The notes beneath the pieces were generated by a model. That model was not told the origin of the DNA, ran no database searches, and saw only the letters and a list, made by a program, of their open reading frames with translations. A stretch of DNA of 64,000 nt from Labrys wisconsinensis (GTDB taxonomy: Bacteria; Pseudomonadota; Alphaproteobacteria; Rhizobiales; Labraceae), in contig NZ_JAUSVX010000001.1 of NCBI RefSeq assembly GCF_030814995.1, forward strand, positions 930,001 through 994,000. The letters are read 5' to 3'. The translations under genes were made by a program, and so were the position numbers. This document shows, in pieces, positions 43,888 to 54,471 of the stretch; within the stretch, counting starts at the first letter, position 1, and each line of letters begins with the position of its first letter.

Positions 43888-43996
43888 TTGCTGGATTGGG
43901 CTGTCAAGCGCAAGATTCGCGAAATTCTGCGCCGCCCGCCGCACCACGCCGACACATGCCCGGGCAGCTCCCACATCCCGTCCGCGGCCCGTCTTG

Positions 43997-44019
43997 ATAA
44001 ATCCAGACAGTGGATTTAT
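43997..44019. promoter_or_regulatory. ROK-repressor operator upstream of the CUT1 operon
   Basis: ATAAATCCA-GACAG-TGGATTTAT, perfect 9-bp arms with a 5-base centre. The same half-site and spacing recur at 52377-52399 in front of the ROK repressor gene. It lies 65 bases upstream of the CUT1 binding-protein start. Confidence 0.88.
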
Positions 44020-44084
44020 GGTTCGTCGTCCGGCTCGGGCCGGCCAAGACAAGACATCCAACGAGACATCCAGGGGACATGCCG

Positions 44085-45362
44085 ATGAGACGGGGATTGA
44101 GCGGTTTGGCCGGCGCGGCGGCGCTGCTTCTGGCGAATGCGGCCCTTCCGGCCCGCGCCGACACGGTTTCCCTTTTCTGCAGCTCCTCCGGCTCCGAATA
44201 CGAGATCTGCAAGGCCGGCGCCGACGCCTGGGCCAGGCAGACCGGCAACGAGGTCAGGATCAACAAGATGCCGGCGGCCTGGGATGAGGCGCTGCCGCTC
44301 TACCAGCAGCTGCTCTCGGCCCAGTCGACCGATGCCGACGTGCTGCTGCTCGACGTCGTCTGGGTCGGTCTCCTGCAGAAGAACCTGCTCGATCTCAATG
44401 CGGACCTGTCCAAGGACGACATCGCCCAGCACTTCCCGGCGACCGTCGCCGCCGGCACCGTCAACGGCCGGCTGGTGGCGCTGCCCTGGTACACGGATAC
44501 CGGGCTGATGTTCTACCGCAAGGACCTGCTCGCCAAGTACGGCAAGCCGGTGCCGAAGACCTGGGCCGAGCTGACCGAAACGGCCAAGGCCGTGCAGGAC
44601 GGCGAGCGCGCCGCCGGCAACAAGGACATCTGGGGCTATGTCTGGCAGGGCAAGTCCTACGAGGGCCTGACCTGCGACGCGATCGAATGGACCGCCTCCT
44701 CCGGCGGCGGCACCATCATCGACGACAAGGGCGCCATCACCATCGACAATGCCAAGGCGGCCGGCGCGCTCGCGCTGGCGCATGGCTGGGTCGGCTCGAT
44801 CACCCCGCCGGGCGCCCTCAACTATGACGAGGAGGGCTCGCGCAGCGTTTTCGAGACCGGAAACGCCGTGTTCCTGCGCAACTGGGCCTATGTCTGGGGC
44901 ACCTCGCAGGCCGCGGGCGCGCCGCTGGTCGGCAAGGTCGGGGTCGCGGCCCTGCCGGTCGGCGCCGCCGGCGAGAGGTCGAGCGGCTGCATGGGCACCG
45001 CCCATCTCGGCATCTCGAAATACACCCGGCACAAGGACGCCGCCCTCAGCCTGCTGCACTTCCTCGCCGGCAAAGACGAGCAGAAGCGCCGCGCCATCGC
45101 CGGCGCCTACAACCCGACGATCGCGGCGCTCTACGACGATGCCGACGTGCTGAAGGCCCTGCCCTTCCTCAAGGACGCCGAGGCCGCCTTCGCCGAGAGC
45201 GCCGTGCGCCCCTCGGCCATCACCGGGTCGAGCTACAACCGGGTGTCGCAGGCCTTCTTCAAGGCGGTGCACGGCGTGCTCGGCGGCGACACCGAGGCCG
45301 GCCCGGCGCTGAAGACCCTGGCGGAGGACCTCGCCACCATCAAGGCCGCCGGCAAGTGGTGA
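44085..45362 (+). CDS. CUT1 carbohydrate ABC transporter substrate-binding protein
   Basis: 425-residue periplasmic binding protein of the SBP_bac_1 (maltose/trehalose type) family. A Sec signal peptide (MRRGLSGLAGAAALLLANAALPARA) leads into DTVSLFCSSSGSEYEICKAGADAWARQTGNEVRI. LPWYTDTGLMFYRKDLLAKYGKPVPKTWAEL is the family hallmark. ATG 44085 is preferred because AGGGGA lies 7 bases upstream; ATG 44079 is too close to it. First gene of a seven-gene operon under the ROK-type operator. Confidence 0.93.
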   Translation: MRRGLSGLAGAAALLLANAALPARADTVSLFCSSSGSEYEICKAGADAWARQTGNEVRINKMPAAWDEALPLYQQLLSAQSTDADVLLLDVVWVGLLQKNLLDLNADLSKDDIAQHFPATVAAGTVNGRLVALPWYTDTGLMFYRKDLLAKYGKPVPKTWAELTETAKAVQDGERAAGNKDIWGYVWQGKSYEGLTCDAIEWTASSGGGTIIDDKGAITIDNAKAAGALALAHGWVGSITPPGALNYDEEGSRSVFETGNAVFLRNWAYVWGTSQAAGAPLVGKVGVAALPVGAAGERSSGCMGTAHLGISKYTRHKDAALSLLHFLAGKDEQKRRAIAGAYNPTIAALYDDADVLKALPFLKDAEAAFAESAVRPSAITGSSYNRVSQAFFKAVHGVLGGDTEAGPALKTLAEDLATIKAAGKW

Positions 45363-45423
45363 GACGGCCGCAAGCCGATCGGACGCCGCCCCCCGGGCGC
45401 CTCCAACCCGTGAAGACCTGATC

Positions 45424-46296
45424 ATGCTCATCGGCAATGCGCCCTGCTCCTGGGGCGTCTTCTATCCCACCGGCAACGCGCTCGGCGGCGAGGCCTATCT
45501 CGACGCGGTCGCCCGCGCCGGCTACCACGCCACCGAGCTCGGCCCGCTCGGCTTCCTGCCGGCCGACACCGCGGTTCTCCGCGATGCGCTCGCCCGCCGC
45601 GGCCTCACCCTCGCCGGGGCCGCGCATGTCCATGTCCTGACGCAGGCCGGCTCCTGGCCGGTGCTGCAGGCGGCCCTGGATGCCCTCGGCCCGATCCTGG
45701 CCCGGCTCGGCGCCCCGCACCTGGCGCTGATGGACGAGAGCGAGGCCTATCCTGCCGAAGCGCCGGGCGTCACCGACGCGGCGGGCTGGCGGGCGATGAT
45801 CGATCTCGTCCGCCGCGCCCACGCCCATATGCGCGAGGCGCACGGGGTGGCGCTGACCTTCCATCCCCATGTCGGCACCTGCGTCGAGCGCGAGGACCAG
45901 ATCGACCGCCTGCTGGCGGAGACCGAGGTGGACCTGTGCTTCGACACCGGCCACCATGCCTTCTGGGACCAGGACCCCATCGCCTATATGCGCAAGGCCT
46001 GGGACCGCATCGGCTATATCCACCTCAAGAATGTCGACCCGGCAGTGCGGGCCCGGGTGCTTTCCGGCACGCTCGGCCCGAACGAATCCTTCGCCGCCGG
46101 CGTGATGGCGCCGCTGCCGGACGGGGCGGTCGACATTGCCGGCGTGGTCCGGCTGATGCGCGAGCGGGCCTATGACGGGCCTTGCGTCGTCGAGCAGGAC
46201 CCGAGCACCGATCCGGCGGCCGAGCCGCCGGAGGCCCTGGCCGTCCGCAACCGCCTCTTCCTCGAACGCCTCCTCGCCGCTGGAGATGCCGCATGA
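45424..46296 (+). CDS. Sugar-phosphate isomerase/epimerase-family TIM barrel (IolE-like)
   Basis: 290-residue AP-endonuclease-2-fold protein. The N-terminus IGNAPCSWGVFYP matches the inosose dehydratase/isomerase (IolE) style GNAP.SWG, and metal ligands are recognisable in the FHPHVGTCVE, CFDTGHHAF and YIHLKNVDP segments (Glu/Asp/His). A role as inosose dehydratase or keto-sugar isomerase is possible. It overlaps the NagB-like gene by 4 bases and is followed by a ROK kinase, so it acts on the sugar brought in by the operon's importer. Confidence 0.87.
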   Translation: MLIGNAPCSWGVFYPTGNALGGEAYLDAVARAGYHATELGPLGFLPADTAVLRDALARRGLTLAGAAHVHVLTQAGSWPVLQAALDALGPILARLGAPHLALMDESEAYPAEAPGVTDAAGWRAMIDLVRRAHAHMREAHGVALTFHPHVGTCVEREDQIDRLLAETEVDLCFDTGHHAFWDQDPIAYMRKAWDRIGYIHLKNVDPAVRARVLSGTLGPNESFAAGVMAPLPDGAVDIAGVVRLMRERAYDGPCVVEQDPSTDPAAEPPEALAVRNRLFLERLLAAGDAA

Positions 46297-47096
46297 CCAC
46301 CCCCGCCCTGGAGATCTTCGCCCGCCCCGACGCGCTCGGAGAGGCCCTCGCCGGGCGGATCCTCGCCGCCGCCGCCGAGGCAGGCGCCGCCGGCCGGCCC
46401 TTCCTGCTCGGCTGCCCCGGCGGCCGCTCGCCCCGCCCGGTCTACCAGGCGATGGCGGCGGCGCTCGCCGCGGCGCCGCGCGACCTCGGCCATGTCGTGA
46501 TCGTGATGATGGACGACTATCTCGCCGAGCGCGATGGGCGGCTCGACCATGTCGACGCCGACGCCCATTACAGCTGCCGGCGCTTCGGCCGCGAGGAGAT
46601 CCTGGCGGTGCTGAACGCCGGCTTGCCCGAGCCCTGGCGCATTCCGGCCGCCAATCTCTGGGTCCCCGACCCGGCCGATCCCGCCGCCTATGACCGGCGG
46701 ATCGCGGCGGCGGGCGGCATCGACCTCTTCATTCTGGCTTCCGGCGCCAGCGACGGCCACGTCGCCTTCAACCCCGCCGGCACGCCCGCCGATACCCGCA
46801 CCCGCATCGTGCCGCTCGCCGAGGCGACGCGGCGCGACAACATGCAGACCTTCCCCGACTTCGCCAGCCTCGCCGAGGTGCCGGCCCACGGCATCAGCGT
46901 CGGCGTCGGCACCATCGCCGAGCAGTCCAGGGCGGCGGCGATGGTGCTGTGGGGCGAAGGCAAGCGCCTGGCCTTCCAGCGCATCGCGGCGGCGGACGGC
47001 TATGATCCGCAATGGCCGGCGAGCGTGGTCAATCTCTGCCGCAACGCCACGATCTTCGCCGATGCGGCCGCGGCCGGCCGGACGGGGCCGCGCTGA
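46293..47096 (+). CDS. NagB/6-phosphogluconolactonase-fold protein
   Basis: 267 residues with the glucosamine-6-phosphate isomerase fold. [15 protein letters not shown] binds phosphate, [11 protein letters not shown] carries the Asp that corresponds to NagB D72, and [15 protein letters not shown] carries the catalytic His (H156). The NagB Glu148 position (FNEPGS in E. coli) reads Pro here, so the deaminase proton relay is altered and an isomerase or lactonase-type reaction is as likely. The end overlaps the ROK kinase start by one base (TGATG). Confidence 0.86.
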
Positions 47097-48013
47097 TGCC
47101 GATTGCGCTCGGCGTCGACGTCGGCGGCACCAAGATCGCGGCGGCCCTCGTCGACCTCGAGGACGGCCGCCTGCTGCACCAGGTCACCGTGCCGACCGCC
47201 CTGGTGGACGGCGCCGGCGGCGTGCTGGCAGGCATCCGCCGCGCGGTGACCGCGGTCCGCGACCTCGGCCGCAGCGACGGCGCCGAGCCGATCGGCCTCG
47301 GCCTGCCCGAGCTGGTCTCGCCGGAGGGCGCCATCGCCAGCCGCTGGATCGCCGACTGGACGGGGCTCGACCCGCGCCGCGAGCTGGCCGACCTCGGCAT
47401 CGTCGCCGTCGACAGCGACGTGCGGCTCGCCACCCTGGCCGAGCAGCGCTATGGCCATGGCCGCGACTTCGCCAGCTTCGCCTTCATCACGGCGGGCACC
47501 GGCCTCAGCTACAGCCATTGCTCGGACGGGCGGATCCACCGCGGCGCCCACGGCTTCGCCATCCATTTCGCCTCCAACGACCTGATGGTGATGGCCGACG
47601 GGCGCCAGGCCGCCTTCAACCTGGAATCCTTCGCCTCGGGCCTGGGCATGGCGCAGGCCTATGCCCGGCGCACCGGCCGCACGGCGAGCGCGCGCGACAT
47701 CGTCGAGGGCCGCGCCGGGGCGGAGGGAGCGCTGCTGCTCGACCAGGCCACCACCGCCCTCGCCAGCTATGTCGGCCAGATGATCAACATGCTCGACCCG
47801 CAGGCCGTCGTCCTCGGCGGCGGGCTCGGCACCGCGCCGGCCTTCTTCGAGGCGGTGCGTGCCAAGGTCCCGGCCTATGTCTGGGCCGAAGCCTGCCGCA
47901 CCCTGCCGATCCGCGCCAGCGCGCTGCACGCCACCGCCGGCGTGGTCGGCGCCGCCGCGCTGCATGCGCCATCACCTTCGGGACCGAACCAGCCATGGCC
48001 TCCGTCAGCCTGA
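47096..48013 (+). CDS. ROK-family sugar kinase
   Basis: 305 residues: [16 protein letters not shown] is the phosphate-1 loop, [18 protein letters not shown] contains the catalytic Asp (D108, with Ser replacing the usual Asn before it), and [29 protein letters not shown] the GTG motif. The Cys-rich zinc motif of NagK/glucokinase-type ROK proteins is absent. The end overlaps the ABC ATPase gene by 19 bases. Likely phosphorylates the sugar imported by the operon before isomerisation. Confidence 0.88.
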
Positions 48014-49098
48014 CCTCCGTCGCCAAGAGCTACGGGCATGTCGACGTGATCCGCGACGTCGACCTCGCCATCGCCGACGGCGAGTTCGTGGTGTTCGTCG
48101 GCCCCTCCGGCTGCGGCAAGTCGACCCTGCTGCGCCTCATCGCCGGGCTCGTGCCGGTGACCTCCGGCGACATCCGCATCGACGGCGAGGTGATGACCGA
48201 CGTCCCCGCCTCGGAGCGCGGCATCGCCATCGTCTTCCAGTCCTATGCGCTCTATCCCCACATGACCGTGGCCCGGAACATCGGCTTTGCGCTGGAGACC
48301 GCCGGCCTCGGGCGGGCCGCGATCCGGGAGAAGGTCGAGCGCATCGCCGCCATGCTCCGCATCGGCCACCTCCTCGACCGCAGGCCGCGCGAGCTCTCCG
48401 GCGGCCAGCGCCAGCGCGTCGCCATCGGCCGCGCCCTGGTGCGCCAGCCCGAGGTCTTCCTGTTCGACGAGCCGCTCTCCAACCTCGACACCGACCTGCG
48501 CACCGAGATGCGGGTCGAGATCGCCCGGCTGCACGACGAGCTCGGCACCACCATGATCTACGTCACCCACGACCAGATCGAGGCCATGACCCTGGCGGAC
48601 CGCATCGTCGTGCTCAACGAGGGCCGCATCGAGCAGGTCGGCACCCCCAAGGACCTCTATCTCAGGCCGGCGAACCGCTTCGTCGCCGGCTTCATCGGCT
48701 CGCCGCGGATGAATTTCGCGCCCGTGCGCGCCGAGGCCGCGGCCGGGGCCTGGCGCCTCGCCGGTGCCGGCAGCCTCGACCTCGGCGGCATCGACACGCC
48801 TGAGGCCCCCGTCTCGATCGGCGTGCGGCCCGAGGCGCTCGTCCTGGCCGGTGACGGCCGGCCGGCCCTGATCCAGGGCGAGGTGATCCGCCTGGAAGAC
48901 CTCGGGCACGAACATTTCGCCCATATCCGCATCGCCGACGACCTGATCTGGACGGCACGGCTGGCCGGCTCCCAACCCCCGCCGGACCGCGGCGCCCGCG
49001 TCGCCCTCGCCTGGGAGCCGGCCGACCTCTTCCTCTTCGACGAGGGCGAACGCCGGCTCGACCGCCGCGCCGCCGCCGGCCTGGAGCGAGCCTCGTGA
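47995..49098 (+). CDS. CUT1 ABC transporter ATP-binding protein (UgpC/MsmK type)
   Basis: 367-residue ATPase with a C-terminal regulatory TOBE-like domain. Walker [11 protein letters not shown]-loop [20 protein letters not shown], signature [32 protein letters not shown], and [32 protein letters not shown] are all near-consensus for the maltose/glycerol-phosphate class. Lies inside the operon between the kinase and the two permeases. Confidence 0.95.
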
Positions 49099-49985
49099 GC
49101 GGGCGCCTCGCCCGGCGCGAGATGCGCGCCGCCTGGCTGTTCCTGGCGCCGACGCTGATCGCCCTGGCGCTGGTGGCGCTCTGGCCGCTGGCGCGCACGC
49201 TGTTCTTCTCCATCACCGATGCCGAGCTCGACGATCCCGCCAGCTACGCGTTTGTCGGCCTGCAGAACTTCCTCGCCGTCGCGCAGGACCGGCAATGGTG
49301 GCGCGCCGTCGGCAACACCGTGCTGTTCACCGCCGTCTCTGTCTCGATCGAGACGCTGCTCGGGCTCGGCATCGCCCTGCTGCTCAACGCGGCGCTGCCG
49401 GGGCGCGGGGCCCTGCGCGCCGCGATCCTGATCCCCTGGTCGATCCCCGTGGTGGTCTCGGCCAAGATCTGGGAATGGATGCTCCATGATCAGTTCGGGG
49501 TGATCAACAAGCTCTTGATCGGCCTCGGCATCCTCGACAAGGGCCTGGCCTGGACCGCCGATCCCGCCCTGGCGATGGGCGTGATCATCTTCGTCGACGT
49601 CTGGATCACCACGCCCTTCATGGTGCTCTTGATCCTCGCCGGCCTGCAGACCATCCCCGCCGAAATGATGGAGGCGGCCTTCGTCGACGGCGTGCCGTGG
49701 TGGAAGCGGTTCTGGTCGCTGACCCTGCCGATGCTGCGGCCGGCGATCGGCGTCGCCGTGCTGTTCCGCGTGCTCGACGCCATGCGCATGTTCGACCTCA
49801 GCTACATCCTGGCCGGCAATGGCGAGCGGACGATGACGGTGTCGATCTATGCCCGCAACCAGCTGATCAGCTTCCAGGCGCTCGGCATGGGCTCGGCGGC
49901 CTCCACCTGCGTCTTCCTGGTGATCGGGCTGGTCGCCGTCCTGATCATCGGCGCGCTGCGGCTCGACCGCGCCACGGCGAGGTGA
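49095..49985 (+). CDS. CUT1 ABC transporter permease (MalF/UgpA type)
   Basis: 296-residue inner-membrane protein with about six helices. [30 protein letters not shown] is the typical first membrane segment, and [37 protein letters not shown] is the EAA coupling loop with G....W..F..i.LP. The start overlaps the ATPase stop (ATGA). Confidence 0.94.
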
Positions 49986-49989
49986 GGCC

Positions 49990-50871
49990 ATGACGACCAC
50001 CCTGTCCAGGCCCGCGCGCTGCCGCCGCTCGCCGCGCTTCTACCGCTGGCAGCGCCGGGCCAAGGCCGCCGGCATGATCGCCGCCGGGCTCCTCGTGCTC
50101 GTCTACACGCTGTTTCCCTACTACTGGGCGCTGGTCTCCTCCTTCCGCTCCGGCGTCGCCCTGTTCAGCCCGAGCCTGGTGCCGAGCTTCGACCTGACCC
50201 ATTACAAGGCGCTGCTCGCCGACCCCGTCTTCACCGGCAGCATCGTCAATTCGCTGATCGTCGCCGGCTCGACCACGGCAATCTCGCTCGCCCTGGCGAC
50301 GATGGCGGCCTATGCGCTGGGGCGCCTCAGCTTCGCCGGCAAGGCGGCGATGCTGCTGGCGATCCTGATGGTGTCGATCTTCCCGCAGATCGCCGTGATG
50401 TCCGGCATGTTCGAGCTGGTGCGCTGGCTCGGCCTCTACAACCGCATCGGCGCGCTGATCCTGGCCTATCTCATCTTCACCGTGCCGTTCACGGTCTGGG
50501 TGCTGACCAGCTTCATGCGCGAGTTTCCGCGCGAGCTGGAGGAGGCGGCGATCATGGACGGCTGCTCGCACTGGCGCATCCTGACGCGCATCCTGCTGCC
50601 GCTGATGGGCCCAGCGCTGGCGAGCACCGGCCTGCTCTCCTTCATCCTCGCCTGGAACGAGTTCCTGTTCGCCCTGACCTTCATCCTCTCCGACGAGAAC
50701 CGCACCGTGCCGGTCGCCATCGGCCTGATCTCGGGCAACAGCCGCTACGAATATCCCTTCGGGCCGATCATGGCCGCTTCGATCATCGTCACGCTGCCGC
50801 TGATCGTGCTGGTGCTGATCTTCCAGCGCCGGATCGTCACGGGCCTCACCGCCGGCGCCGTCAAGGGCTGA
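49990..50871 (+). CDS. CUT1 ABC transporter permease (MalG/UgpE type)
   Basis: 293-residue permease. A basic N-terminus precedes the first helix (LLVLVYTLFPYYWALVSSFRS). The coupling loop is FPRELEEAAIMDGCSHWRILTRILLPLMGPALASTGLLSFILAWNEFLFAL, an excellent EAA motif with the AWNEF segment diagnostic of MalG-type proteins. Last gene of the operon, 4 bases after the other permease. Confidence 0.95.
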   Translation: MTTTLSRPARCRRSPRFYRWQRRAKAAGMIAAGLLVLVYTLFPYYWALVSSFRSGVALFSPSLVPSFDLTHYKALLADPVFTGSIVNSLIVAGSTTAISLALATMAAYALGRLSFAGKAAMLLAILMVSIFPQIAVMSGMFELVRWLGLYNRIGALILAYLIFTVPFTVWVLTSFMREFPRELEEAAIMDGCSHWRILTRILLPLMGPALASTGLLSFILAWNEFLFALTFILSDENRTVPVAIGLISGNSRYEYPFGPIMAASIIVTLPLIVLVLIFQRRIVTGLTAGAVKG

Positions 50872-51137: not shown

Positions 51138-52370
51138 TCAGGCCCCCGGACCGGCCGGCTCGTAGAGGTCGAGGATGCGGCCGCGGATGGTCCAGGTCGC
51201 GGCCGGGTCCGGGTCGAGCGTCGCCAGCAGGGGGGTCGTGGCGGCGCCGAGCGCGATCACGTCGGTGCCGATCAGGCCGGCCTGCAGGCGGGGGATGGCG
51301 CGGTCGCGGCGCAGGCCGATGGTGGGATGCAGCGGGTGGGCGCGCTCGACCAGGCGGTCCAGCACATGCGGCGGCAGGTCGCTGCCGATCAGGATCGTCT
51401 GCGGGTCGAGCGTGTTCTCCAGCGTGGCGACCAGCCAGCGCAGATGGTCTGCCGCCGCCTCGATCCAGGCCTCGGTCGCCGCGCGGGCGCCATCGATCAG
51501 GTCGGGCAGGCTGAGGTCGAGGTCGTGGATCGCATCCTCGCCCGGCGCGATCCGGCCGAGCAGGCCTTCGAGCGACAGGATCGATTCCAGGTAGAGCGTC
51601 TCCTCGCCCCGCCGCACCAGGATGCGGCCGACCTCGCCGGCATTGGCCGAGCCGCCGCGGTAGATCGCCCCGTTCTGCACCAGGCCGCCGCCGAGGCCGT
51701 GGCCGAGGAAGAGGTAGCAGAAATGCTGCAGGCCGACGCCGCGGCCGAAGGTGAGCTCGCCGAGGGCGCCGGCATTCGCGTCGTTCTCGACGATGACGGC
51801 AAGGCCCGTGTCCTCGGCCAGGCCGCGGTCGAGCTCGTAGCCGTGCACCCTGCTCCAGAACTCGCCTTCCAGCAGCGGGCTGTCGAGCTCCTCGCCATCG
51901 AGGCGCAGGCGGGGTGAGGCGATGCCGACGCCCCAGACGCGCCGGCGCTCGACGCCGGCGGCGGCGATGAGCCCGTCGACGAGACGACGCAGCGTGCCGC
52001 GCACCCCGGCTTCCGACGGGTCCGTCAGCGGCTCGCGGATCTGCGCCCGCTCGGCATAGGCGAAATCGATCAGCACGGCGCGCACCGCGGTGCGGTCGAG
52101 GTGCAGCCCGATGCCGAAGCCGCAATCGGCGGCGATGCGATAGCTCGTCGGCGGCTGGCCCTTGCCGCCATAGACCTTGCCGGCGGGCACCACCAGCCCG
52201 CCATCCCACAGGTCCTGGGTGATGTTGGAGACGGCCTGCGGGCTGAGCTGCACCAGGCGCGCGATCTCGGCGCGGCTGAGCGAGGGGTCGCGCCTGAGCA
52301 GGCCGAGCACCGTCTGCCGGTTCAGCCGCTTGGTGAAGCCGTGGTTCTTCCCGAGGCCTGGGTCTTTCAC
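51138..52370 (-). CDS. ROK-family transcriptional repressor
   Basis: About 410 residues: an N-terminal winged helix (NRQTVLGLLRRDPSLSRAEIARLVQLSPQAVSNITQDLWDGGLV) fused to a ROK kinase-like effector domain. ATPase-domain motifs are degenerate. VENDANAGALGELTFGRGVGLQHF is the sugar-kinase-like segment with the D-A-N triad. The GTG at 52370 is taken as start because an in-frame GTG at 52403 would place the operator (52377-52399) inside the coding region. Divergent from the Gfo/Idh gene. Its operator is repeated before the CUT1 operon, so it is that operon's probable repressor. Confidence 0.88.
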   Translation of the reverse strand: MKDPGLGKNHGFTKRLNRQTVLGLLRRDPSLSRAEIARLVQLSPQAVSNITQDLWDGGLVVPAGKVYGGKGQPPTSYRIAADCGFGIGLHLDRTAVRAVLIDFAYAERAQIREPLTDPSEAGVRGTLRRLVDGLIAAAGVERRRVWGVGIASPRLRLDGEELDSPLLEGEFWSRVHGYELDRGLAEDTGLAVIVENDANAGALGELTFGRGVGLQHFCYLFLGHGLGGGLVQNGAIYRGGSANAGEVGRILVRRGEETLYLESILSLEGLLGRIAPGEDAIHDLDLSLPDLIDGARAATEAWIEAAADHLRWLVATLENTLDPQTILIGSDLPPHVLDRLVERAHPLHPTIGLRRDRAIPRLQAGLIGTDVIALGAATTPLLATLDPDPAATWTIRGRILDLYEPAGPGA

Positions 52371-52376
52371 AATTTC

Positions 52377-52399
52377 ATAAATCCAGTTTGTTGATTTAA
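52377..52399. promoter_or_regulatory. ROK operator between the repressor and the Gfo/Idh gene
   Basis: ATAAATCCA-GTTTG-TTGATTTAA: left half-site identical to 43997-44005, right half-site with two changes from the perfect copy, same 5-base centre. Suits autoregulation plus control of the divergent oxidoreductase. Confidence 0.82.
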
Positions 52400-52466
52400 C
52401 CACGTCGCCGGGGCATTATCCAGCCCGCGGGCCGCGTTCCTGCAGCCCCCCTTCTGGAGATCGAGC

Positions 52467-53531
52467 ATGAGTATCCGGGTCGGCCTGATCGGGCTTGGCG
52501 AAGTCGCGCAGCTGATGCACCTGCCCCTGCTCGCCGACGACCCGCGCTTCCGCATCGCGGCGGTCATGGACGTCTCGCCCTCGCTCCTCGCCCATGTGGC
52601 GGCGCGCTACGGCGTCGGCAAGACCTATGCCGATGCGCGGGCGCTGCTCGGCGACCCCGAGATCGACGCGGTGTTCATCCTGACGCCCGACCATCTCCAT
52701 GCCGGCCTCCTGTCGCAGGCGATGGACGCCGGCAAGCACGTGTTCATCGAGAAGCCGGTGTGCCTGACGCTCGCCGAGCTCGAGCCGATCCTGCCTCGGG
52801 CCGCGACCTATGGGAAGACGCTGTTCGTCGGCTACATGCGCCGCTTCTCCCGGCCCTTCCTGGAGCTGAAGCGCCGGCTGCCGCCGGCGGACGAGATCAT
52901 CCACGTCCGCATCCGCGACCTCATCTGCGAAGGCCCGTTCTTCATCCGCCAGACCCGGCCGGTGTTCTATCCCACCGACGTGCCGCGGCCGATCATCGAG
53001 GCCGGCCGCGCCGAGACGGACCGGCTGCTGCGCTCGGCGATCGGCGAGAGGTCCTCCGCCGAGCAGCGGCGCGCCTATCAGGTCCTGACCGGCCTGTCCT
53101 CGCACAGCTTCTCGGCGATGCGCGAGCTGTTCGGCATGCCGCAGGGGCTGCACGCGGCCGTGCAGCACAAGGGTGAGCGCATCGTCGCCCTGTTCGACTA
53201 CGGGCATTTCACCGCGGTCTACGAGGCGGTGATCAACAATGTCGCGCGCTTCGACGCCGGCATCGAGGTGCTGACCGACCGCCAGCAGTTCCGGGTGACC
53301 TACGACACGCCCTATGTGCGCAACCTGCCGACGCAGCTCACGGTGACCACTTCGACGGACACGGACACGCACAGCGAAATCGTCGGGCCGAGCTACGAGG
53401 ACCCGTTCCGCATCGAGCTCGACGCCTTCCATGACTGCATCGCCGGCGGCGCCCGGCCGAAGACGACGCTGGAGGACGCGCGCCAGGACCTCGACCTCTT
53501 CGCCGCCGTCGGCCGCGCCTTTCCGGCCTGA
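52467..53531 (+). CDS. Gfo/Idh/MocA-family oxidoreductase
   Basis: 354-residue NAD(P)-dependent sugar/inositol-type dehydrogenase. IRVGLIGLGEVAQLMHLPLLADDPRFRIAAVMDVSP is the Rossmann opening; AMDAGKHVFIEKPVCLTLAE holds the EKP motif with catalytic Lys. GYMRRFSRPFLELKRRL and the C-terminal alpha/beta half follow. The start follows TTCTGGAGATCGAGC. Divergent from the ROK repressor across the shared operator, so it likely belongs to the same carbohydrate regulon as the CUT1 operon. Confidence 0.9.
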   Translation: MSIRVGLIGLGEVAQLMHLPLLADDPRFRIAAVMDVSPSLLAHVAARYGVGKTYADARALLGDPEIDAVFILTPDHLHAGLLSQAMDAGKHVFIEKPVCLTLAELEPILPRAATYGKTLFVGYMRRFSRPFLELKRRLPPADEIIHVRIRDLICEGPFFIRQTRPVFYPTDVPRPIIEAGRAETDRLLRSAIGERSSAEQRRAYQVLTGLSSHSFSAMRELFGMPQGLHAAVQHKGERIVALFDYGHFTAVYEAVINNVARFDAGIEVLTDRQQFRVTYDTPYVRNLPTQLTVTTSTDTDTHSEIVGPSYEDPFRIELDAFHDCIAGGARPKTTLEDARQDLDLFAAVGRAFPA

Positions 53532-53652: not shown

Positions 53653-54471
53653 ATGCAGAGCACACCCTTCCGAACCCCGAGCCCGCGCGTGGCCGTCATC
53701 GGCGCCGGCGCCATGGCGCTCGCGCTCGCCGCGGGCCTCGCCGGCGGCGACCCGCCGCTGCGGATCGGCGCGGTGCTGGCGCGCCGGCCGCCTGCTGCGC
53801 CCGCCTTCGACGGCATGGCCGTCTGCGCCGACGCCGCGGGCCTGCTCGCCTGGGGGCCGGACCTGGTGGTCGAATGCGCCGGCCATGGCGCGATGCGAGA
53901 CCTCGTTCCCGCCTGCCTCGCCGCCGGCGTCGACTGCATCATCGCCTCGGTCGGCGCCCTGGCCGAGCCGGCCGTGCTGGCCGACGTCCGGGCAGCAGCG
54001 GAGCGCGGCCGGGCGCGCCTCGTCGTCCCCGCCGGCGCGCTCGGCGGGCTCGACGCCCTCGCCGCCGCCAGGCTCGCCGGCCTCACTGCCGTGACCTATC
54101 GCGGCAGCAAGCCGCCCGCCGCCTGGAAAGGCACCCCGGCCGAGGAAGCCTGCGACCTCGACGCCCTGGAGCGGCCCGCCATCGTCTTCGAGGGCTCGGC
54201 GGCGGAGGCGGCGGCCCGCTTTCCCCGCAACGCCAACGTCACCGCCGCGCTCGCCCTGGCCGGCCTCGGTCCGGAGGCGACCCGGGTGACGCTGGTCGCC
54301 GACCCCGGCCTCGTCGCCAACACCCACCGCATCGAGGCCGAGGGCGCATTCGGCCGCTTCGTGTTCGAGACGGAGAACCGGGCCCTGCCGGACAATCCCC
54401 GCACCTCCCTTCTGGCGGCGCTCAGCTTGCAGCACGCCGTGCTCAATCATGTCGCGCCCCTGATCCCGTGA
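53653..54471 (+). CDS. L-aspartate dehydrogenase-family protein (AspDH/NadX-like)
   Basis: 272-residue NAD(P)-dependent amino-acid dehydrogenase. VAVIGAGAMALALAAGLAGG binds cofactor, VVECAGHGAMRDLVPACLAAGVDCIIASVGALAEPAVL is the family mid-region, RLVVPAGALGGLDALAAARLAGL follows, and YRGSKPPAAWKGTPAEE plus FPRNANVTAALALAGLG are the AspDH-specific active-site stretches (Lys/His environment). In AspDH the reaction is oxaloacetate + NH3 to and from L-aspartate. First gene of a coupled trio: its stop overlaps the next start by one base. The context with B12 and FAD proteins suggests it acts on a related amino acid. Confidence 0.87.
   Translation: MQSTPFRTPSPRVAVIGAGAMALALAAGLAGGDPPLRIGAVLARRPPAAPAFDGMAVCADAAGLLAWGPDLVVECAGHGAMRDLVPACLAAGVDCIIASVGALAEPAVLADVRAAAERGRARLVVPAGALGGLDALAAARLAGLTAVTYRGSKPPAAWKGTPAEEACDLDALERPAIVFEGSAAEAAARFPRNANVTAALALAGLGPEATRVTLVADPGLVANTHRIEAEGAFGRFVFETENRALPDNPRTSLLAALSLQHAVLNHVAPLIP

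Follow-up and report, generated by a model that had tools for sequence, protein, structure and literature searches.

A conserved, unnamed clade of NagB-like proteins, often with its own ROK kinase subfamily, in an operon of accessory appearance from several phyla

We analysed a window of 64,000 nt from Labrys wisconsinensis (contig NZ_JAUSVX010000001.1, C1:930001-994000; positions below are counted within the window), which carries a seven-gene run on the plus strand (44079-50871). Its first gene encodes an ABC sugar-binding protein, and its last three an ATPase and two permeases. Between them, at 45424-48013, are three genes, coding for a TIM-barrel protein of IolE-like type, a NagB-like protein and a ROK-family kinase, whose neighbouring stop and start codons overlap; the original prediction had assigned these three genes, and their coordinates and families (PF01261, PF01182 and PF00480) were borne out. 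We found that the NagB-like protein represents a conserved and unnamed NagB clade, which occurs in several phyla and often stands together with its own kinase subfamily in what looks like an accessory operon. It is probable that the NagB-like enzyme and the kinase together carry out the last steps in degrading a sugar compound taken up by the cell.

In the alignment of the NagB-like protein with solved structures, Pro161 was found to occupy the place of Glu148 (against DGHIAFNEPASS); the E. coli NagB reference sequence matches this alignment around the motif. A larger alignment was made of 81 members, namely the window protein and the members of 80 loci (80 of 120 relatives were retained). Asp72, Asp141, His143 and Lys208 were invariant in 81/81 members, and position 148 held Pro in 74, Gln in six and Gly in one, with an acid in none of the 81. 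Both alignments agree with the earlier claim that the protein carries Pro at the position of Glu148 and keeps the Asp and His. The six members with Gln148 (L053, L069, L074, L079, L080 and L082) all have adjoining GH4 and GH3 genes. As a control, 15 non-clade NagB-like proteins from this genome, the class, plasmids and locus L034 were inspected, and Glu148 was found in 12 and Asp in three. Since the change is common to relatives of several phyla and the 15 outsiders have Glu or Asp, Pro at 148 is not due to chance. The 6-phosphogluconolactonase (6PGL)-type protein of the same genome has Phe at this position. Loss of Arg172 and the change from Gly43 to Arg were also tried as diagnostics of the clade and rejected, because other NagB-like proteins vary there too, one of them having GRT.

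The closest solved proteins to the NagB-like protein were glucosamine 6-phosphate (GlcN6P) deaminases (72.5 bits). Its AlphaFold2 model (pLDDT 96.6) matched monomeric NagB 2bkv with a Z score of 32.4 and a root-mean-square deviation of 1.5 over 234 residues, indicating that the protein has the NagB fold; the Z score was 30.9 against E. coli NagB (1dea) and 24.7 against the best 6PGL. NagB, 6PGL and sugar sensors of the DeoR/SorC type were among the matches listed by the fold search, and these are enough to explain the fold. Against the curated models, the protein scored 95.1 bits for TIGR00502 (NagB, cut-off 236.9) and 30.9 bits for TIGR01198 (pgl, cut-off 124.45), and an assignment as plain 6PGL was rejected on the latter score. 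The model alignment consisted of 50 of the 81 rows (L060, whose frame is intact, and L057, L068, L071, L078 and L081 were among those excluded), and a tree was built from every second row of it (25) and the L034 member. All 26 clade rows fell on one side of a single branch with a support of 100/100. Judged by sequence, the protein thus belongs to a separate, unnamed NagB clade, which is like NagB in its fold and in Asp72, Asp141, His143 and Lys208, but unlike it in having no acid at 148, in its own branch and in its score far under the NagB cut-off.

In NagB, His143 opens the sugar ring and Asp72 transfers a proton, a mechanism that fits the residues kept in the clade. As far as the accessible part of one publication goes, Glu148 makes contact with the catalytic His143 when the enzyme is in its active state, and with Lys160 when it is in the other (PMC4008608), and the residues listed in the accessible part of another imply Asp at the 148 place of the Giardia enzyme, the position being equated by offset (PMC4281351). 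Given these contacts in published enzymes, loss of the acid at 148 is unusual, and it does not alone abolish the chemistry.

The window kinase carries DVGGTK and VDSDVR and scored 116.1 bits against PF00480 (gathering score 22.9), indicating that it is a ROK kinase. It shares the PF00480 domain, the DxGGT motif and the catalytic Asp with ROK glucokinase and NagK, but has SDVR in place of NDxN and lacks both GExGH and the Cys cluster of the zinc site; the Ser before the catalytic Asp and the missing zinc motif had been pointed out beforehand, and the residue survey confirmed them. Among ROK proteins neighbouring the NagB-like gene, [SA]Dx[RK] replaced NDxN, with neither GExGH nor the zinc cluster, in 32 of 40 loci, and the remaining eight were six from Gemmatimonadota (zinc cluster, GDxGH form) and two from Martelella (NDIN). 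The L. wisconsinensis genome has 35 ROK-family matches, of which 34 are marked as over the Pfam cut-off. We surveyed 29 of the 34 matches other than the window kinase, regulators as well as kinases, including the ROK regulator of the window: 22 have Asn before the Asp, 17 have the zinc cluster and 14 have GExGH, and [SA]Dx[RK] occurs in 0/29. By these residues, the kinase belongs to a separate ROK subfamily, marked by [SA]Dx[RK] and the lack of a zinc site.

Judged by record titles, members of the NagB-like clade occur in Alphaproteobacteria, Actinomycetota and Gemmatimonadota, and three further groups have one member each. At an E value of 1e-30, the genes for the NagB-like protein and for this ROK kinase were found in the same two of 199 genomes of the order, L. 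wisconsinensis and one other, and were adjacent in both; four congeners in this sample had neither gene at that limit. In the class sample, both genes were found only in the L. wisconsinensis genome (1/385; limits of 1e-25 for the kinase and 1e-35 for the NagB-like protein). The operon therefore has the look of an accessory one. Of ten plasmid records that contain a clade gene, four name it 6-phosphogluconolactonase, five have no gene listed at its place and one lacks annotation altogether. We found no description of the clade in the open-access literature, most subscription journals being outside the scope of the search.

Partner genes were counted up to 10 kb on each side of the NagB-like gene in the 80 loci, with queries drawn from the same loci (a few matches are self-hits), and GH4 and BadF genes were mostly named by tblastn likeness. 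An IolE-like gene was detected in 32 loci, 31 of which also had Gfo/Idh, 26 ROK and none BadF. A GH4 gene was detected in 24 loci, together with BadF in 19, PfkB in five, Gfo/Idh in three and ROK in two. Only L034 had both IolE and GH4 (Fisher p = 1e-5 for their exclusion, kinship ignored). As far as these gene assignments go, there are two nearly exclusive partner sets, IolE-like and Gfo/Idh, mostly with ROK, versus GH4 with BadF or PfkB. On a quick NagB-like tree made without bootstrap, the IolE label needs nine changes and the GH4 label ten, and supported branches force at least two of each. Pfam confirmed GH4 in four loci and BadF in six (L053, L070, L031, L071, L042 and L048), with L071 barely over the gathering score.

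These partners were concentrated close to the NagB-like gene. Per 100 kb, the density within 4 kb versus further away was 4.1 versus 0.1 for GH4 (24 and 1 matches), 3.4 versus 0.1 for BadF (20 and 1), 4.9 versus 0.4 for IolE (29 and 3) and 7.8 versus 1.6 for Gfo/Idh (46 and 12); 4 kb on both sides was available in 62/80 loci. Within 7 kb, a kinase was detected in 60/80 loci, a C3-oxidising gene in 61/80 and both in 51/80. L003 and L009 are two-gene units of NagB-like protein and kinase, with no transporter or C3-oxidising genes alongside.

The sequences show the genes and their overlaps, the retention of Asp72, Asp141 and His143, another residue in place of Glu148 and a swap of modules between loci. 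On this basis we propose a route of import, C3-oxidative cleavage, phosphorylation and a final reaction of NagB type that yields a ketose 6-phosphate, and we give this scheme as a whole an even chance of being right; its reactions, its substrate and the placing of the kinase before the NagB-like enzyme are all inferred. The ABC transporter would import a small glycoside or sugar conjugate, which Gfo/Idh and the IolE-like TIM barrel may cleave via temporary C3 oxidation, as a two-protein equivalent of GH4. The ROK kinase would then phosphorylate the freed hexose, most likely at O6. Finally, His143 of the NagB-like protein would open the ring and Asp72 would move the C2 proton. The product would be a ketose 6-phosphate, for example fructose 6-phosphate, and this step would shed nitrogen if the sugar carries it. 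In the loci with GH4, the glycosidase and the kinase would likewise leave a hexose 6-phosphate. Since no further downstream enzyme was seen to recur in the listed neighbourhoods, judged by eye and by cluster, we expect the product of the NagB-like step to be a central metabolite.

A precedent for the C3-oxidative step is the levoglucosan pathway (LgdA/LgdB1/LgdC), in which, according to the available portion of its description, Gfo/Idh and PF01261 proteins cleave levoglucosan via a 3-keto sugar, a route that is likened there to GH4 and GH109 (PMC10066097). By analogy, Gfo/Idh and the IolE-like protein may do here what GH4 does in other loci. The window resembles that pathway in having a Gfo/Idh protein (NAD-dependent in the levoglucosan case), a PF01261 protein and an ABC importer, but the same portion names no kinase or NagB-like protein for it, and the window Gfo/Idh scored only 50.2 bits against the levoglucosan dehydrogenase model NF052479 (cut-off 650). 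GH4 glycosidases, which act by oxidising C3 and replace the IolE-like and Gfo/Idh module in 23/80 loci, are a different protein family, and none is encoded in the window operon. The earlier suggestion that the operon may process a keto- or amino-sugar in a new order is partly supported: the keto-sugar half gained from the recurring Gfo/Idh and TIM-barrel pair, the GH4 substitute and the likeness to the levoglucosan route in what could be consulted of PMC10066097, and the new order of steps found no support.

The fructosamine (frl) operon of B. subtilis offers a second comparison; FrlB is a SIS-fold protein and FrlD a PfkB protein. As described in the accessible text, that operon likewise combines an ABC importer, a sugar 6-kinase and a deglycase whose substrate is the 6-phosphate (PMC12632257). 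In contrast, the operons studied here encode an enzyme with the NagB fold, and their kinases are mostly of the ROK or BadF families; this text names no C3-oxidising module for frl. A new activity of the NagB fold may be entertained as a tentative possibility, either the cleavage of N-substituted 2-amino-hexose 6-phosphates (Heyns-type sugar conjugates) with release of an amine that is not ammonia, or the isomerisation of a neutral rare hexose 6-phosphate.

Several observations weigh against the proposed route. Neither IolE nor GH4 was found in 25/80 loci, and six IolE-type loci had no detected ROK. Within 7 kb, 29/80 loci missed a detected kinase or C3-oxidising gene and ten missed both, with ROK undercounted. 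These ten are the Inquilinus-type L029, L033, L037, L038 and L051, then L019, L045 and L066, and the short or cut L024 and L078; in most of the first eight, the contigs are long enough to reveal partners. ROK genes were not enriched close to the NagB-like gene (20 near and 20 far), the near count being too low as the density survey dropped ROK matches overlapping the NagB-like frame (L020, L022, L052 and L058), which the 10-kb counts include. In the six Gemmatimonadota loci, the ROK is of another type, which has the zinc site. Furthermore, the Gfo/Idh gene of the window sits outside the operon proper, its product aligns with solved relatives mainly over the first 140-200 residues, and the Gfo/Idh proteins across the loci are of several kinds.

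We next consider an ordinary GlcN6P deaminase that tolerates Pro148, in an operon degrading glucosamine or a glucosamine glycoside. In its favour, NagB is the nearest solved family by score and by fold, Asp72, Asp141 and His143 are retained, and Glu148 is partly allosteric in the part of PMC4008608 that was available, since it contacts His143 or Lys160 depending on the state. Some partner genes also hint at nitrogen. The BadF protein of L053, the sole BadF compared with solved structures, is nearest the N-acetylmuramic acid/N-acetylglucosamine kinase 8zo3 (65 bits), but about equally near hexokinase 2e2n (62.5 bits). PIG-L deacetylase and GH116 genes lie near the NagB-like gene in Caulobacter and Phenylobacterium, but PIG-L occurs in just 3/80 loci, within 4 kb in these two Caulobacteraceae and 6 kb away in L031, and a PotD-like binding protein is found in one locus (L062). 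Against plain glucosamine stand the lack of an acid at 148, where all 15 sampled outsiders retain Glu or Asp, and the rest of the genome. Contig C17 encodes a protein that is more closely related to NagB and has Glu148, and the genome has a NagA as well. However, the C17 protein reached 177 bits, under the NagB cut-off of 237, which weakens the argument from redundancy; no protein of this genome reaches that cut-off, so a need for a deaminase is possible. On balance, we regard a plain deaminase as rather unlikely.

Alternatively, the NagB-like protein may isomerise a non-amino aldose 6-phosphate, of allose, mannose or another hexose, to the ketose 6-phosphate, with the loss of Glu148 reflecting the lack of an amino group. 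The absence of an acid in all 81 members speaks for this, as do the presence of another NagB relative in the genome and the window's lack of NagA, and C3 oxidation followed by re-reduction could deliver a C3 epimer. On the other hand, no recurring 3-epimerase or downstream isomerase was seen in the listed neighbourhoods, which were judged by eye and by cluster with no family search, and the PIG-L and PotD-like genes of a few loci suggest nitrogen. We consider this isomerase unlikely. The NagA argument itself says little: NagA is indeed missing from the window, as had been stated in the original prediction, but the sole genome match over the curated cut-off lies on contig C11, so that the absence is local.

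A 6PGL-type lactonase acting after C1 oxidation by Gfo/Idh is very unlikely. The genome's own 6PGL-type protein has no acid at 148 either, and some plasmid records label relatives 6-phosphogluconolactonase, but the D[DE]Y motif is of the NagB type, the fold is nearer NagB, the pgl score is far under its cut-off, Gfo/Idh was detected in just 3/24 GH4-type loci, and the genome already has a 6PGL-type protein.

It is highly improbable that the operon encodes a variant of the inositol or inosamine pathway whose steps resemble those of IolE and IolG, as the likenesses that suggest it, 127.2 bits of the IolE-like protein to TIGR04379 (IolE, myo-inosose-2 dehydratase; cut-off 290), 119 bits of the window Gfo/Idh to TIGR04380 (cut-off 355) and 323 bits to the latter of one Gfo/Idh from the Rhodobacter-type locus L018, all lie under the cut-offs, and the IolE-like gene was undetected in 23/24 GH4-type loci. 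The window proteins were rejected as IolE or inositol enzymes on these scores. In an alignment of 32 IolE-like rows, His147, His149, Glu155, His177, Arg195, His200 and Asp259 were each kept in at least 95% of covering rows. The original prediction had also judged that the set fits neither the N-acetylglucosamine nor the inositol pathway. This was supported in that the IolE-like, NagB-like, ROK and Gfo/Idh proteins of the window reach no NCBIfam cut-off and that the NagB-like protein and the kinase form separate subfamilies, but not through the missing NagA, as the genome has one.

The genes of the operon are arranged as follows. The ABC substrate-binding protein (44079-45362, PF01547 106 bits) has a signal-peptide-like start at 44079, with an open reading frame possible from 44010. 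Its best solved relatives are 6jb0 (351 bits), MalE3 (271), a trehalose/maltose-binding protein (214) and SmoF (191); the title of 6jb0 names just an ABC periplasmic binding protein, which we take to be an alpha-glycoside-binding protein. Next come the genes for the IolE-like protein (45424-46296, PF01261 81.3 bits), the NagB-like protein (46293-47096, PF01182 43.5 bits), which starts at ATG 46293 within the overlap with the IolE-like stop, and the kinase (47096-48013). The UgpC/MalK-type ATPase (47995-49098, NF008653 443 bits, cut-off 432) is followed by permease 1 (49095-49985) and permease 2 (49990-50871), both assigned from their reading frames and translations and from counterparts in related loci, annotated in Shinella as a sugar ABC permease and a carbohydrate ABC permease, respectively. 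Convergent with the operon, on the minus strand, is a ROK-family transcriptional regulator (51138-52403) with a helix-turn-helix (HTH_24) and PF00480 (71 bits), and divergent from it is the Gfo/Idh/MocA dehydrogenase gene (52467-53531, plus strand, PF01408 93 bits). In L004 (Aestuariivirga), the gene order is as in the window, regulator and dehydrogenase included. The same seven genes occur on a Shinella plasmid, where the dehydrogenase gene immediately follows the permeases; no ROK regulator is annotated within the 20.7 kb shown. A sigma-70-like promoter pattern 5' of the operon (43994-44022, plus strand) is weak, one being found where 0.4 was expected in the region, and the search for repeats and promoters around the operon yielded nothing firm. 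Just 3' of the Gfo/Idh gene is an aspartate dehydrogenase gene (53653-54471, NF009828 258 bits, cut-off 177), which probably belongs to a separate pathway.

Elsewhere in the genome, both GH4 genes lie outside the window. A second sugar region (C1:876000-894000, L093) contains a GH4 glycosidase along with, by eye, ABC genes and regulators of AraC-like and LacI-like type, and its NagB-like protein has Asp at 148 and NAH in place of DGH. Other neighbours of the NagB-like gene were also observed across the loci. A two-domain cupin (about 285 residues, Cupin_2) lies near it in 14/80 loci (11 IolE-type, one GH4-type and two with neither) and in L084, and two copies tested had no NCBIfam name. Near the NagB-like and ABC genes, Devosia and Martelella share a conserved protein of about 825 residues with 51% identity (L019:3244-5730, L026:7452-9926 and L027:7452-9926); the Devosia copy had no Pfam or NCBIfam match, the Martelella copy had no Pfam match, and the model of the 828-residue Devosia protein was poor (pLDDT 45.7). 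The Caulobacteraceae loci L071 (5135-12946) and L078 (4496-9998) have PIG-L deacetylase and GH116 genes close to the NagB-like gene and also, by eye, a GPH-like transporter and a PhyH-like protein; L071 additionally has Gfo/Idh and a BadF-type kinase, and L078 ends at the contig edge. In the Gemmatimonadota loci L015, L016, L021, L030 and L032, a CutC-like gene is directly 3' of the NagB-like gene and the zinc-type ROK is 5' of it; in L016 the former was identified by Pfam as PF03932, and a GMC-like oxidoreductase lies upstream (by eye).

The clade is a variant of known enzyme kinds. If the NagB-like protein has one of the two new activities considered above, this would define a sugar pathway not recognised so far, with a single enzyme of NagB fold supplied by either of two modules that can stand in for each other, the split system of Gfo/Idh and TIM barrel or the single GH4 enzyme. 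The exchange of these modules is a testable hint that the Gfo/Idh and TIM-barrel pair can replace GH4.

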